Assembly (NCBI RefSeq): GCF_020510525.1
Contig: NZ_CP075188.1
Span: 2,108,001 to 2,172,000, forward strand
Length of the DNA: 64,000 nucleotides
Direction of reading: 5' to 3'
From: Quatrionicoccus australiensis
GTDB taxonomy: Bacteria; Pseudomonadota; Gammaproteobacteria; Burkholderiales; Rhodocyclaceae
Below the pieces are notes generated by a model. That model saw only the letters and a list, made by a program, of their open reading frames with translations. It was not told where the DNA came from and searched no databases. The position numbers were made by a program, and so were the translations under genes. Shown here one piece after another: positions 7,554 through 15,176 of this stretch (position 1 is the first letter of the stretch; each line of letters begins with the position of its first letter).

Positions 7554-8498
7554 TTGAAAAACGTTCTCGTCGTCAATTATTCGCAAACCGGGCAACTTGC
7601 CGACGTGACCGCACAGGTGATCGCCCCGCTTGCGGCGGCCGGTCACAAGGTCCATCTGGAGACGCTGGTGCCGGAAACGCCGTTTCCCTGGCCGTGGTCG
7701 CTGGTCGATTTTGTTGATGTCTTTGCCGAATCCGTGCAGCTCGACGCACCACCGTTAAAGCCCCTCTCCATCCCGGCGGATGCCGAATTCGACCTGGTCA
7801 TTCTGACCTATCAGGTCTGGTACCTGTCGCCCGCCCTGCCCATCGTCGCTTTCCTGAACAGTGCCCGGGCCAAACATCTGCTCAAGGGCAAACCGGTAGT
7901 CACGCTGGTGGCCTGCCGCAACATGTGGCTGACCGCACAACAGACCATGCAGCGCCTGATTGCCGAGGCCGGTGGCGAATTGCGTGACCACATTGCCTTT
8001 ACCGACAACGCGCATGCGCTGGCCACACTGATCACCACACCTCGCTGGGTGCTGACCGGCAAGCGCGACAGCTTCCTCGGCCTGCCGCCGGCCGGCGTCT
8101 CCAGGGAAGATGTGCGTGGCGCCAGGCGTTTCGGGTGCGCGCTGGCTGACGCACTCGATCACGACGGCGAAAAGACGGGAAAACCGATGTTGACCGGCCT
8201 GAGAGCCGCCCCGGTCAATCCGCGCCTGGCGATGAGCGAAAAGGCCGGTCATCGGGCTTTCCGCGTCTGGTCAAAAATCATTCGCAGCTTCGGCAAGCGT
8301 GGACAATGGCGGCGGCGCCCTATCTTGGCAGTATTCACCATTTACCTGATTGCCATGGTGTTTACCGTTGTTCCACTCAGCCTGTTGCTACAATGGTTGC
8401 TTTCCCCCCTGCTCAAGCCCCGGCTGGCGCGCTTACGCGCCGAACTCGAACTGCCGTCCGGCGCGCAGGAATTCAACCTGAACAAATATGAACAGTAG
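7554..8498 (+). CDS. darA: DarA-type dialkylresorcinol condensing enzyme/cyclase
   Basis: The 314-residue flavodoxin-fold protein matches the DarA family that works with DarB to cyclise two acyl-derived chains into a cyclohexanedione/resorcinol. Visible features are the phosphate-loop-like NYSQTGQ after the first strand, the FPWPW...FVDVFAES segment, [13 protein letters not shown], and a strongly hydrophobic C-terminal helix (about residues 256-287) preceded by RRR that should anchor it in the membrane. The TTG at 7554 is the most plausible start because the fold begins at the next codon and the upstream frame is unrelated, but its ribosome site is weak. It overlaps darB by 11 nt and opens the operon. 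Confidence 0.82.
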
Positions 8499-9639
8499 CG
8501 GCAAGGTCTATATCACCCGTAGTTCGGCCTTTTTGCCGAATGCACCGGTCGATAACGAAAACATCGAGAACGTGCTCGGCATGGTTGGCGGCCGACCTTC
8601 GCGCGCTCGCCGCATCGTGTTGCGCAACAACGGCATCCGCGAACGTTACTACGCGATCGATCCGGCGACTGGCGAAACAACGCACAACAATGCCCAACTG
8701 ACGGCGGCAGCGATCCGCGGCCTGGATATCGGCGACGCCATCGATTGCTTGTCCACCGGCACGACCATGCCCGACCAGTTGATGCCCAACCATGGCGTCA
8801 TGGTGCACGGCGAACTGGGCATTTCGCCCTGTGAAGTCGTGTCGACCGCTGGCATCTGCCTGTCCGGCCTGACCGCACTGAAATATGCCTACATGGCCGT
8901 GCTCTGTGGCCAGGCGAAAAATGCCGTCGCCACCGGTTCGGAACAGGCTTCCGCCGTGCTGCATGCGCGCAATTTCGCCAGCGAGTCGGAACACCGCATT
9001 AGCGAGCTGGAAAGCAACCCGGAAATCGCTTTCGAAAAAGATTTTCTGCGCTGGATGCTCTCCGACGGCGCCGGCGCTTTCCTGCTCCAGGATCAGCCGG
9101 CACCTGCCGGACTGTCGCTGCGCATCGACTGGATCGACATCCTGTCGCAGGCCGGCGCCATGGAAACCTGCATGTACGCTGGCGGCGAAAAGCAGGAAGA
9201 CGGCACGTTGCGCGGCTGGAAGACCTATCCGGCCAACGAATGGGGCCGGCGCTCGCTGTTTGCCATCAAGCAGGACGTCCGGCTGCTCAATGAAAACATC
9301 GTGCGCCAGACGATAGGCAAGATCCTCGAGAAGTCGATGGCGACGCGCGAACTCAAGCCGGATGCGGTCGACTGGTTCCTGCCGCACATGTCTTCCGAGT
9401 ACTTCCGCCAGCCGCTTGCCGAGCACATGGCTGCACTCGGCTTCCCGATTCCCCAGGAAAAGTGGTTCACCAACCTGCACACCAAGGGCAACACCGGTGC
9501 CGCGTCGATCTACATCATGATCGATGAACTGTTCAAAAGCGGCCGCCTCAAGAACGGTGACCGCCTGCTCTGCTTCATCCCGGAAAGCGGCCGTTTCACC
9601 GGCTCGCTGATGCATCTGACGGCGGTCGACCATGCTTGA
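8488..9639 (+). CDS. darB: DarB-type beta-ketoacyl-ACP synthase III
   Basis: The 383-residue thiolase-fold condensing enzyme has the FabH-type triad: Cys124 in STAGICLSG, His300 in LPHMS and Asn335 in KGNTGAAS. The N-terminal pattern ([44 protein letters not shown]) is that of DarB, the ketosynthase of dialkylresorcinol pathways, rather than of housekeeping FabH. In characterised systems DarB joins two beta-keto or enoyl thioesters and DarA completes ring formation. Coding overlap with both neighbours (11 nt before, 8 nt after) indicates one coupled unit. The acyl substrates here are unknown. Confidence 0.9.
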
Positions 9640-10027
9640 CAACGAAGTTCCCCAGGAGGGCAACGCTACCCTAGGCGGCCACAGCAAGGCAGTCTATGCG
9701 CGCGGCGCCGACGGCAAGCTGCATCTCGTCCAGTCGGCCGGCTGGGAGGTCGAGGAAATCGTCACAAAACAAGCCGTAGACGACCTCAACCGCCTGGCTG
9801 CAGATGCCCGCCAGCGCGCTCTCGCCGGGCAGACCTCGGCGCTCGAATACCACATGCACAAGGCGCGCATGGACGTGGCTATGCTGGCGCAGACCACCGG
9901 CCTTTTCCAGTGGCGCATTCGCCGTCATTTCCGGCCGGACATCTTCGCCACACTGTCTGACGCGCTGCTCGCCCGCTACGCCGAGGTAATGGGCATCAGC
10001 CTCGAACAACTGAAAAAGGTCGATTGA
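9632..10027 (+). CDS. Small dar-operon protein with HTH-like C-terminus
   Basis: The 131-residue soluble protein of unknown function overlaps darB by 8 nt and the BtrH-type gene by 1 nt. The N-terminal half is variable. The middle contains YHMHKARMD. The C-terminal part (about residues 75-131) looks like a degenerate XRE-type helical bundle: [17 protein letters not shown] resembles a helix-turn-helix, and [16 protein letters not shown] resembles the helix that follows it in Cro/CI folds. Similar small proteins next to darB in other DAR/flexirubin loci are recalled but could not be checked. It could be a local regulator or a structural partner of the condensing enzymes. Confidence 0.75.
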
Positions 10028-13426: not shown

Positions 13427-14505
13427 GCCGTCCCGTATTCATCGCCGGCCGCGCCCTTCTCTGCGCTGCCGGCAATTCGCCGCCGGCAGTCGCCTCGACG
13501 CTGTGGGCCGGCGAATGCGCGCCGGGTCGCCGCCGGCTCGGCGAACGCGAGTTTCCCTATTTCGCGCTGAACTTGCCGGAAAGCGCCTGGCAGGCCCGCG
13601 CCGAACAAGCAATGCATGCCCTGGCAGCCCAACTTGGCCCGCTCGACGAAAAAACGCCACTCTTCATCGCCTCCTCGTCCTTCCAGATGGGCCAATTCGA
13701 GGCAGCCGGTTCGCCTTTCGAACTGCCGCCCGCCTGCGCCGCCTTCAGCCGGCAACTGGCCGACTGGCTGGGCCTGAACGGTTCCTGCTACAGCTTTTCG
13801 ACCGCCTGCACTTCGGGCTTCTCGGCGCTCGATGCGGCGCGCAGCCTGATCGCCGCCGGCCTGATCGACGACGCCGTCGTGCTCGGCGTCGAACTCGCCA
13901 ACAATTCGACCCTGGCCGGCTTTGCCGCAATGGAACTGCTCTCGCGCAGCACCGCCCGGCCCTTCGACGTCCGCCGCGATGGCCTGGTGCTCGGTGAAGC
14001 CGTCGCCGCCGTGCGCCTGAGCGCCCAACCCGCCACCTGGCGCATCGCCGGGCTGCGCACCGGCCTCGACGCCTATTCGACGACCGGCCCCGACCCGGAT
14101 GGCGGCCCGATTGCCGCCCTGACGGTCGACTGCCTGCAGGAAGCAAAAATGCCGGCCGGCGACATCGAGCTGGTCAAGCTGCAGGCGGCCGGCTCGCCCG
14201 GCACCGATCTCGCCGAGGCCAACGCGCTGCGCCGGGTTTTCCGCGAACGCATGCCGCCGCTCCTCTCACTCAAGCCCTATCTCGGCCATACCCTGGGCGC
14301 CAGCGGCATCGCCGAACTGGTTGCCCTGCTTGCCTGCCTCGATGCCGAGCAGATCCCGGCCACCGCGGGGTTTGCCGAATCCGACCCGGAAATCGCCCTG
14401 AAACCGACCGTCGTGCGCAGCAATACCTATATCGAGCGCGCCCTGCTGCAACTGATCGGTTTCGGCGGCGGCTTGGCCAGCCTGATCGTCGAGCGTCGCC
14501 AATGA
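13423..14505 (+). CDS. Beta-ketoacyl-ACP synthase (KAS I/II family) lacking one catalytic histidine
   Basis: The 360-residue thiolase-fold ketosynthase is shorter than typical FabF (~410). The nucleophile Cys129 sits in STACTSG and His289 in PYLGHTLGASG. The position of the other catalytic His (normally in the AHGT motif) is Ala256 in LQAAGSPGTD. The enzyme may therefore condense inefficiently, only transfer acyl groups, or act as a specialised partner of the next gene product. Start and stop overlap both neighbours by 4 nt. In aryl-polyene/DAR loci, paired ketosynthase and chain-length-factor-like proteins elongate the acyl chain; a similar role is inferred. Confidence 0.87.
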   Translation: MSRPVFIAGRALLCAAGNSPPAVASTLWAGECAPGRRRLGEREFPYFALNLPESAWQARAEQAMHALAAQLGPLDEKTPLFIASSSFQMGQFEAAGSPFELPPACAAFSRQLADWLGLNGSCYSFSTACTSGFSALDAARSLIAAGLIDDAVVLGVELANNSTLAGFAAMELLSRSTARPFDVRRDGLVLGEAVAAVRLSAQPATWRIAGLRTGLDAYSTTGPDPDGGPIAALTVDCLQEAKMPAGDIELVKLQAAGSPGTDLAEANALRRVFRERMPPLLSLKPYLGHTLGASGIAELVALLACLDAEQIPATAGFAESDPEIALKPTVVRSNTYIERALLQLIGFGGGLASLIVERRQ

Positions 14506-15176
14506 CTTATCTCGACACCGTCATCACCCAGGAATTTACAGCGGCTGAACTGCCCGCCGCCGTGCGCGCCGCGCTCGGCAAACCGCTGCGCCGTGCCGCC
14601 ACGCTGACCCAGCTCGCCGTGGTCGGTGCCCTGGCCTGCCTGCCGGCCGAGCGCCGGACTTTGCCGACCGCTCTGCTCTGGCAGACGCGCAGCGGTCCAC
14701 GCACCGAAACGCTAGCTTTGCTCGAAGAAGTCTGCAATGGCGGGGCCGAGCCCATGCCCTACGACTTTCTCGCCACCCAGCCGGCGATTGCCGCAGCGCA
14801 ACTCAAGCCATTCCTGCCCGGCCTGCACTCGGCAACCTGCCTGCCGCTGGCTGACGAGTCGACGGCCAACTGGTCACTGCTGCTCAGTCTTGCCGATCAC
14901 TGGCTGCAGACCGGGCGCTACGCCCAGGTGCTGTGCGCCCGGCTCGACCACACCGACGACCAGTCCAGCGGCCAGTGGCTGGCCCTGAGCGCCACCCCCC
15001 TTGAAAATTCGCTGGCCAGTCTCCACCTGTCGGAAGTCACACCTGTCGAAGCGCTTGCCGACGATAAGGATTTCCCGGCCCGACTCGGCCAGTGGCTTGC
15101 CGCCGGGAGTATCGGCCACCTGTATTTGCAATCCGCCGCCGGCCGGAAGCTGGCGGTAGAATTCGCCCGCATCTAA
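14502..15176 (+). CDS. Ketosynthase N-terminal-domain-like protein (chain-length-factor-like partner)
   Basis: The 224-residue protein resembles the free-standing ketoacyl-synthase N-terminal domain family (Ketoacyl-synt_2) found beside ketosynthases in aryl-polyene and DAR clusters. No active-site cysteine in a TACxSG context is present; the corresponding region is LHSATCLPLAD. It probably pairs with the upstream 360-residue enzyme rather than catalysing alone. It overlaps that gene by 4 nt and is the last gene of the dar-type operon. Family assignment rests on overall pattern and context, so function is less certain than for its neighbours. Confidence 0.75.
   Translation: MTYLDTVITQEFTAAELPAAVRAALGKPLRRAATLTQLAVVGALACLPAERRTLPTALLWQTRSGPRTETLALLEEVCNGGAEPMPYDFLATQPAIAAAQLKPFLPGLHSATCLPLADESTANWSLLLSLADHWLQTGRYAQVLCARLDHTDDQSSGQWLALSATPLENSLASLHLSEVTPVEALADDKDFPARLGQWLAAGSIGHLYLQSAAGRKLAVEFARI

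Follow-up and report, generated by a model that had tools for sequence, protein, structure and literature searches.

The stretch of DNA analysed here, called the window throughout, comprises 64,000 nucleotides of Quatrionicoccus australiensis (contig NZ_CP075188.1, positions 2,108,001 to 2,172,000), and its subject is a block of nine co-directional open reading frames (ORFs) at 7554-15176, all on the + strand and without internal stops, that carries genes of the dialkylresorcinol (DAR) type (Table 1). The spacing between these genes is tight: darA and darB overlap by 11 nt, darB and darD by 8 nt, darD and darE by 4 nt and darE and darF by 1 nt, a gap of 3 nt separates darF from darI, and overlaps of 4 nt follow at darI/darC, darC/darJ and darJ/darK. 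To place the block among its kin, one genome per species was scanned with DarB; 406 relatives emerged and the best 80 loci were kept, which means that the sample leans towards close kin. All nine genes were present in the same order and on the same strand in 26 of these best 80 loci, all of them collinear, which goes beyond what chance would give. An earlier note on this DNA, made from the letters alone, had described the nine genes as one coupled unit and had proposed a gene-neighbourhood check for synteny; the tight spacing and the order shared by the 26 loci agree with that description.

Table 1. Genes of the dar block at 7554-15176, in window coordinates.
Gene	Product	Coordinates	Strand	Features and matches
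darA	DAR aromatase	7554..8498	+	predicted flavodoxin-like domain and C-terminal helices; TTG start
darB	StlD/DarB ketosynthase (DAR cyclase)	8488..9639	+	NF005293 614 bits; close solved relative in PDB StlD 5gk0 (E 2e-152)
darD	NCBIfam DarG family, 131 aa	9632..10027	+	NF053536 171 bits, cut-off 70
darE	candidate acyltransferase, BtrH_N and DUF4872	10024..11013	+	NF053550 477 bits; PF14399, PF16169; TTG start
darF	ATP-binding cassette (ABC) exporter ATPase	11013..11924	+	PF00005 106.6 bits; ATG start at 11013
darI	ABC-2 exporter permease	11928..13160	+	PF12698 123.6 bits
darC	acyl carrier protein (ACP)	13157..13426	+	PF00550 20.7 bits, cut-off 20.8
darJ	KAS I/II-type ketosynthase	13423..14505	+	PF02801, PF00109
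darK	small ketosynthase/chain-length-factor-like partner of DarJ	14502..15176	+	predicted fold

The block is a DAR locus, as the earlier note had it. The StlD/DarB match of its second gene exceeds the cut-off of 450 bits; the narrower NCBIfam DarB (resorcinol) model gave 513 bits, below its cut-off of 550. The Cys, His and Asn positions of the DarB active site were kept in 81 of 81 aligned rows, and both DarA and DarB look intact. Comparison with PDB sequences returned nothing significant for DarA or for DarE. The third gene had been called HTH-like (helix-turn-helix) in the earlier note, and an HTH regulator was rejected as its identity because Pfam gave nothing for this protein and NCBIfam placed it in the DarG family (DarG_fam); the flexirubin-only DarG model of NCBIfam scored 121.5 bits, below its cut-off of 170. 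The fourth gene carries the NCBIfam label ‘BtrH-related acyltransferase DarH’ (cut-off 300 bits), and its residues C12, H125 and D143 are at least 97% conserved among 68 sequences. The acyl group that BtrH transfers is taken from an ACP. The two ABC genes were assigned by Pfam, and the block thus has an exporter of its own, as had been supposed. The ACP match of darC is borderline; of the 61 rows in the alignment, 60 show a DSLD motif and the remaining one DSID.

The genome of the window is a single contig of 4,171,110 bases, in which a search for ketosynthases drew attention to another region, at 4.14-4.15 Mb. There, an arc-type polyene region extends over about 4,141,414-4,163,652, roughly 2 Mb from the dar block at about 2.116-2.123 Mb. 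Its first part holds genes for a FabF-like ketosynthase, a PRK09184-family ACP (NF006617, 138.5 bits), an AMP-ligase (AMP-binding, PF00501), a FabA-like dehydratase (PF07977), an acyltransferase, a LolA-like protein and an MMPL exporter. These are followed by polysaccharide-deacetylase-like and methyltransferase-like genes (both assigned by eye), and then by a PRK09185 ketosynthase (NF006618, 554 bits), a Ketoacyl-synt_2 protein (PF13723) and a short-chain reductase (PF00106). On the other strand lie a Na/H exchanger, a glycosyltransferase, an acyltransferase, MipA, an FkbO/Hyg5-like chorismatase (a PF21168 match, with 241 bits against TIGR04444, below its cut-off of 325) and a halogenase-like flavoprotein. 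The same genome thus holds an aryl-polyene gene set of chorismatase, AMP-ligase, ACP, ketosynthase, ketoreductase and dehydratase; the ORF at the position expected for a second dehydratase gave no Pfam match. Inside the polyene cluster (L010:4977-7685), LysR-, major facilitator superfamily (MFS)- and thioesterase-like genes, judged by eye, stand between the ketoreductase and the Na/H exchanger.

A polyene-free exported lipid was accordingly rejected as the principal account of the block. The statement that the locus has no polyene enzymes holds within the block itself, where none was found, but not for the chromosome, which carries the polyene cluster; given these genes, the view that the simplest product is a resorcinol lipid exported in free form is not supported. 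The earlier note had also allowed for a lipid conjugate, and that half of its wording comes close to the likely answer, whereas the free lipid does not. We consider it probable, at about 0.85, that the block encodes the DAR portion of an arcuflavin-type pigment pathway that is split in two. Arcuflavin is the pigment of Azoarcus sp. BH72, for which mass spectrometry showed a xanthomonadin-like polyene joined to a dialkylresorcinol (DAR ion at m/z 293); the ester bond between the two is a prediction of the authors (PMC3949708, 2014). Because the halves of the pathway lie about 2 Mb apart, a reading based on the locus misses the product.

In the pathway as we picture it, DarB would condense two fatty-acid-derived acyl thioesters and DarA would aromatise the ring to DAR, in line with the literature on these families, for which the DAR-cyclase and DAR-aromatase functions are established (PMC3949708). 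The gene content of the polyene region suggests that the arc enzymes make an aryl-polyene acid on an ACP. Most likely, DarE would then transfer the polyene acyl group from an ACP, either DarC or the arc ACP, to the DAR phenol, and the DarJ-DarK pair, which is ApeO/ApeC-like, probably handles the ACP-bound acyl chain. DarF-DarI and the exporters on the arc side may move the pigment outward, and by analogy with xanthomonadin and flexirubin it probably ends in the outer membrane.

The joint occurrence of the two gene sets was assessed in 60 genomes of relatives, that of the window included, and in 14 control genomes. The results showed that the DarG_fam marker was present in 19 of the 60 relatives and in none of the 14 controls. 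The DarB family was found in the same 19 genomes, 18 of them over the cut-off and one (G002) with its match split across two contigs; one of the 14 controls passed the cut-off, and two genomes with DarB-like matches below it (G042 and G048, 344 and 335 bits) were not counted as carriers. The polyene AMP-ligase ArcT was present in all 19 DarG_fam carriers and the chorismatase in 18. A polyene-type ketosynthase was over the cut-off in 15 of the 19, with partial matches in G025 and G028, and in none of the 14 controls. Within the genus, dar carriers are nested inside polyene carriers, with ArcT in 18 of 18 genomes that have dar and in 12 of 18 that do not (Fisher P 0.019, ancestry ignored). G005 has two ArcT-type AMP-ligase genes (C11 and C80), and its listed contamination is 10%.

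A second count was made in the genomes of the DarB loci. This set covers 43 of the 80 loci, mainly named isolates, and comes to 42 genomes without L117. The polyene-type ketosynthase was over the cut-off in 31 of 32 genomes with DarE near DarB, the single miss being a 1.5-Mb assembly (L109), as against 3 of 10 genomes without DarE (Fisher P 3.3e-5, ancestry ignored). Some genomes, such as G018 and G061, belong to both the relatives and the locus set, and the two counts are therefore not independent. Among the best 80 loci, DarE was found in 67 and DarD in 68, and in the fetched loci darE and the permease gene occurred only where more than darA and darB was present. This distribution of darE, taken with the polyene ketosynthase in 31 of the 32 DarE-bearing genomes, puts darE (and darJ/darK) forward as natural candidates for joining polyene and resorcinol, and narrows down the coupling step.

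Several points weigh against a split arcuflavin-type pathway. The dar and polyene genes are unlinked here, and we infer their joint use. With regard to DarE as the coupler, the authors of the flexirubin work suggested the ligase-like FlxW for ester formation; our literature search on the ester-forming enzyme found, by title, no paper on that step apart from PMC3949708. No polyene-type ketosynthase was found in two genomes that have both dar and ArcT, namely G006 (200 contigs, completeness rated at 100%) and G009 (560 contigs, 89%), and G009 is also the carrier in which the chorismatase was missed. DarK was found in 17 of the 19 carriers, being missing in G006 and G025 and weak in G058 (E 9.6e-4), and it also occurs in G017, which has neither a DarB match over the cut-off nor a DarG match. 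Shared ancestry inflates the co-occurrence, and of the seven genomes with neither DarE nor the polyene ketosynthase, six belong to Photorhabdus. Lastly, the 12 genus members with ArcT and without dar indicate that the polyene half does not need dar and can stand alone, which would also suit an account in which each cluster has a product of its own and the two are not joined: a DAR on the one side and, on the other, a xanthomonadin-like polyene that may be bound to some other lipid. Each cluster does have its own exporters; however, the joining reported for BH72 and the presence within the dar block of a BtrH-type transferase whose Cys, His and Asp are conserved make two separate products very improbable.

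The loci without DarE bear on the other alternative, namely that the block works independently of the polyene cluster and turns ordinary fatty-acid intermediates into a resorcinol lipid that is exported free, or into a conjugate without a polyene. There were 13 such loci among the 80: ten had darA and darB only, one (L111, Providencia) darB only, one (L070, Brenneria) darB and a lone ABC-ATPase match at the far edge, and one (L097) darA, darB and darD with ketosynthase (polyene-type) and ACP matches. Free DAR can be made by such proteins, as was seen when Chitinophaga darA and darB were placed in another host (PMC3992019) and when E. coli with the Azoarcus DAR proteins produced free DAR 7 (PMC3949708). 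The block also has an ABC exporter of its own, and it lies unlinked to the polyene genes. Against this, free DAR was undetected in native BH72 extracts, which showed the hybrid only (PMC3949708); in 12 of these 13 loci darD, the permease and the ketosynthase are absent as well, L097 being the exception; and ArcT accompanies DarG_fam in every carrier among the relatives. We regard a free lipid as quite unlikely, and favour the DAR half of a split pigment pathway.

The ketosynthase pair at the end of the block was considered separately. In DarJ, the active Cys and the second His are retained and Gln takes the place of the first catalytic His (QAAGSPG for HGTxT), so that it lacks the canonical Cys-His-His triad of a decarboxylating ketosynthase. 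At this position, the 63 aligned rows, from which the identity filter had dropped no DarJ row, show 26 Gln (the window included), 36 His and one gap; two of the 36 His rows are the arc ketosynthases of the window's own genome. Gln was found in 22 of the 26 nine-gene loci, and the other four (L072, L073, L080 and L103) still have His, although the motif around it is altered. HGTAT is found in most Pseudomonas-type loci, and as their best ketosynthase matches are only 31-38% identical, these may not be true DarJ. No mention of the His-to-Gln change was met in the literature consulted, where no search was aimed at it.

No Pfam match of DarK passed (the highest gave 13.5 bits, E 0.07), and NCBIfam returned none. 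The structure predicted for the protein takes a ketosynthase/chain-length-factor fold that resembles 6qsp_B, and its gene adjoins that of a ketosynthase, which bears out the description of this ninth gene as a ketosynthase-like partner. No Cys is invariant among 21 DarK sequences; C145, which is nearly so, falls by its position in the prediction within a strand (142-150) and not at the start of a helix. A profile comparison of DarK with the ArcJ-like protein of the same genome showed no similarity (probability 0.3 percent). Taken together, Gln in place of the first His and a chain-length-factor-like partner suggest from sequence that DarJ-DarK may perform acyl transfer and not decarboxylative condensation. 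The fuller proposal, that in this lineage the pair has lost decarboxylative condensation through this change and serves as an acyl-transfer or coupling module which, together with DarE, passes the polyene from its ACP to the resorcinol to form the ester, is doubtful, though if true, a condensing-enzyme pair would have been turned into part of an ester-forming machine. AmcF-AmcG of cispentacin biosynthesis was weighed as a model for DarJ-DarK; in the available part of the source it condenses and cyclises, and so it gives no support for a non-condensing role. A literature search found no paper joining dialkylresorcinol, polyene and chain length factor.

The layout of the block varies among the 80 loci. 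Seven betaproteobacterial-type loci (L054, L059, L060, L064, L065, L068 and L086) come from sequences that end inside the block. In many Pseudomonas loci, darA-B-D-E is succeeded on the opposite strand by ketosynthase, ACP and ABC genes, and a hybrid aryl-polyene-DAR cluster is reported for Pseudomonas sp. 8O, the strain of L093, in a 2023 paper on marine Pseudomonadaceae (PMC10165715). L041 (12529-13267), where the block truly stops behind darE, and the Pseudomonas locus L098 (from 12544), which likewise stops there, have darA-B-D-E without the later exporter, ACP and ketosynthase genes, and this is a shorter form of the block. In an Azoarcus-type block (L072:13575-14508), the genes for the ABC ATPase and the permease are separated by roughly 1 kb, which holds an ORF that looks like a small membrane protein and one that looks like a YciA-like thioesterase, both by eye, for which reason the gap was rejected as the PHD/PilT pair of BH72; the space between the ABC genes may be an insertion spot. 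Downstream of dar in the window are a histone-deacetylase-family gene (16073-16972) and a hybrid sensor kinase gene (17081-19840) with Cache, HAMP, PAS, HisKA, HATPase and receiver domains. About 10 kb past the end of the window, a 2523-codon open frame with a strong ketoacyl-synthase domain (282 bits) at 2182681-2183430 of the genome, on the - strand, is probably a large type I polyketide synthase-like gene.

Among known systems, the closest comparison is with BH72, whose block is darA, B, D, E, F, G, H, I, C, J, K (azo0283-0293; PMC3949708, as are the other BH72 statements in this paragraph). The gene types of the window block and its order darA-B-D-E-F-I-C-J-K match those of BH72 when compared with the published gene table. 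In both, the polyene genes lie outside dar and include a chorismatase and a hydroxybenzoate-type AMP-ligase, and the polyene region here closely matches the arc genes listed for BH72. The two differ in that BH72 has two extra small genes (PHD/PilT) between its ABC genes, which here are 3 nt apart, and in that its polyene genes form two mutually unlinked loci, the nearer of which (azo0253-0264) is about 20 genes from dar by locus numbers, in contrast to the one region found here, which encloses LysR-, MFS- and thioesterase-like genes. When either polyene locus of BH72 was hit by an insertion, in arcK or arcT, the yellow pigment was lost and the strain was colourless. Both kinds of cluster are also listed for D. 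aromatica RCB, three V. paradoxus strains and S. lithotrophicus; the combination of a DAR and a xanthomonadin-like cluster in D. aromatica RCB is that of the window's genome, as compared by reported presence. The window's genus includes Dechloromonas hankyongensis: the same-genus genome G018 and G061, the genome of locus L053 (D. hankyongensis XY25), share an identical match with identical coordinates. Another carrier locus, L051, comes from D. denitrificans ATCC BAA-841. The earlier note had called the product and its role undescribed, which does not hold, since the product class and the split layout are already published. The locus looks like an ordinary relative of this published pathway and not like a new polyene-free lipid system.

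The Bacteroidota flexirubin clusters share DarA and DarB and a polyene esterified to DAR, and NCBIfam holds a flexirubin DarG model and a DarH model; the flexirubin polyene starts with a tyrosine ammonia-lyase and a 4-coumarate ligase, whereas the chorismatase here points to a hydroxybenzoate start. The DarJ-DarK pair resembles ApeO-ApeC (6qsp), in that the best PDB matches of DarJ by sequence are 7f28_B and 6qsp_A and DarK is like 6qsp_B by predicted fold, and departs from it in the Gln of DarJ. Finally, the loci of Photorhabdus and others that have darA and darB only share a homologous DarB (60% identity in Photorhabdus) and mostly DarA, and no darD, darE, permease, darJ or darK was found near their darB; the window block, with seven further genes, falls outside that class.

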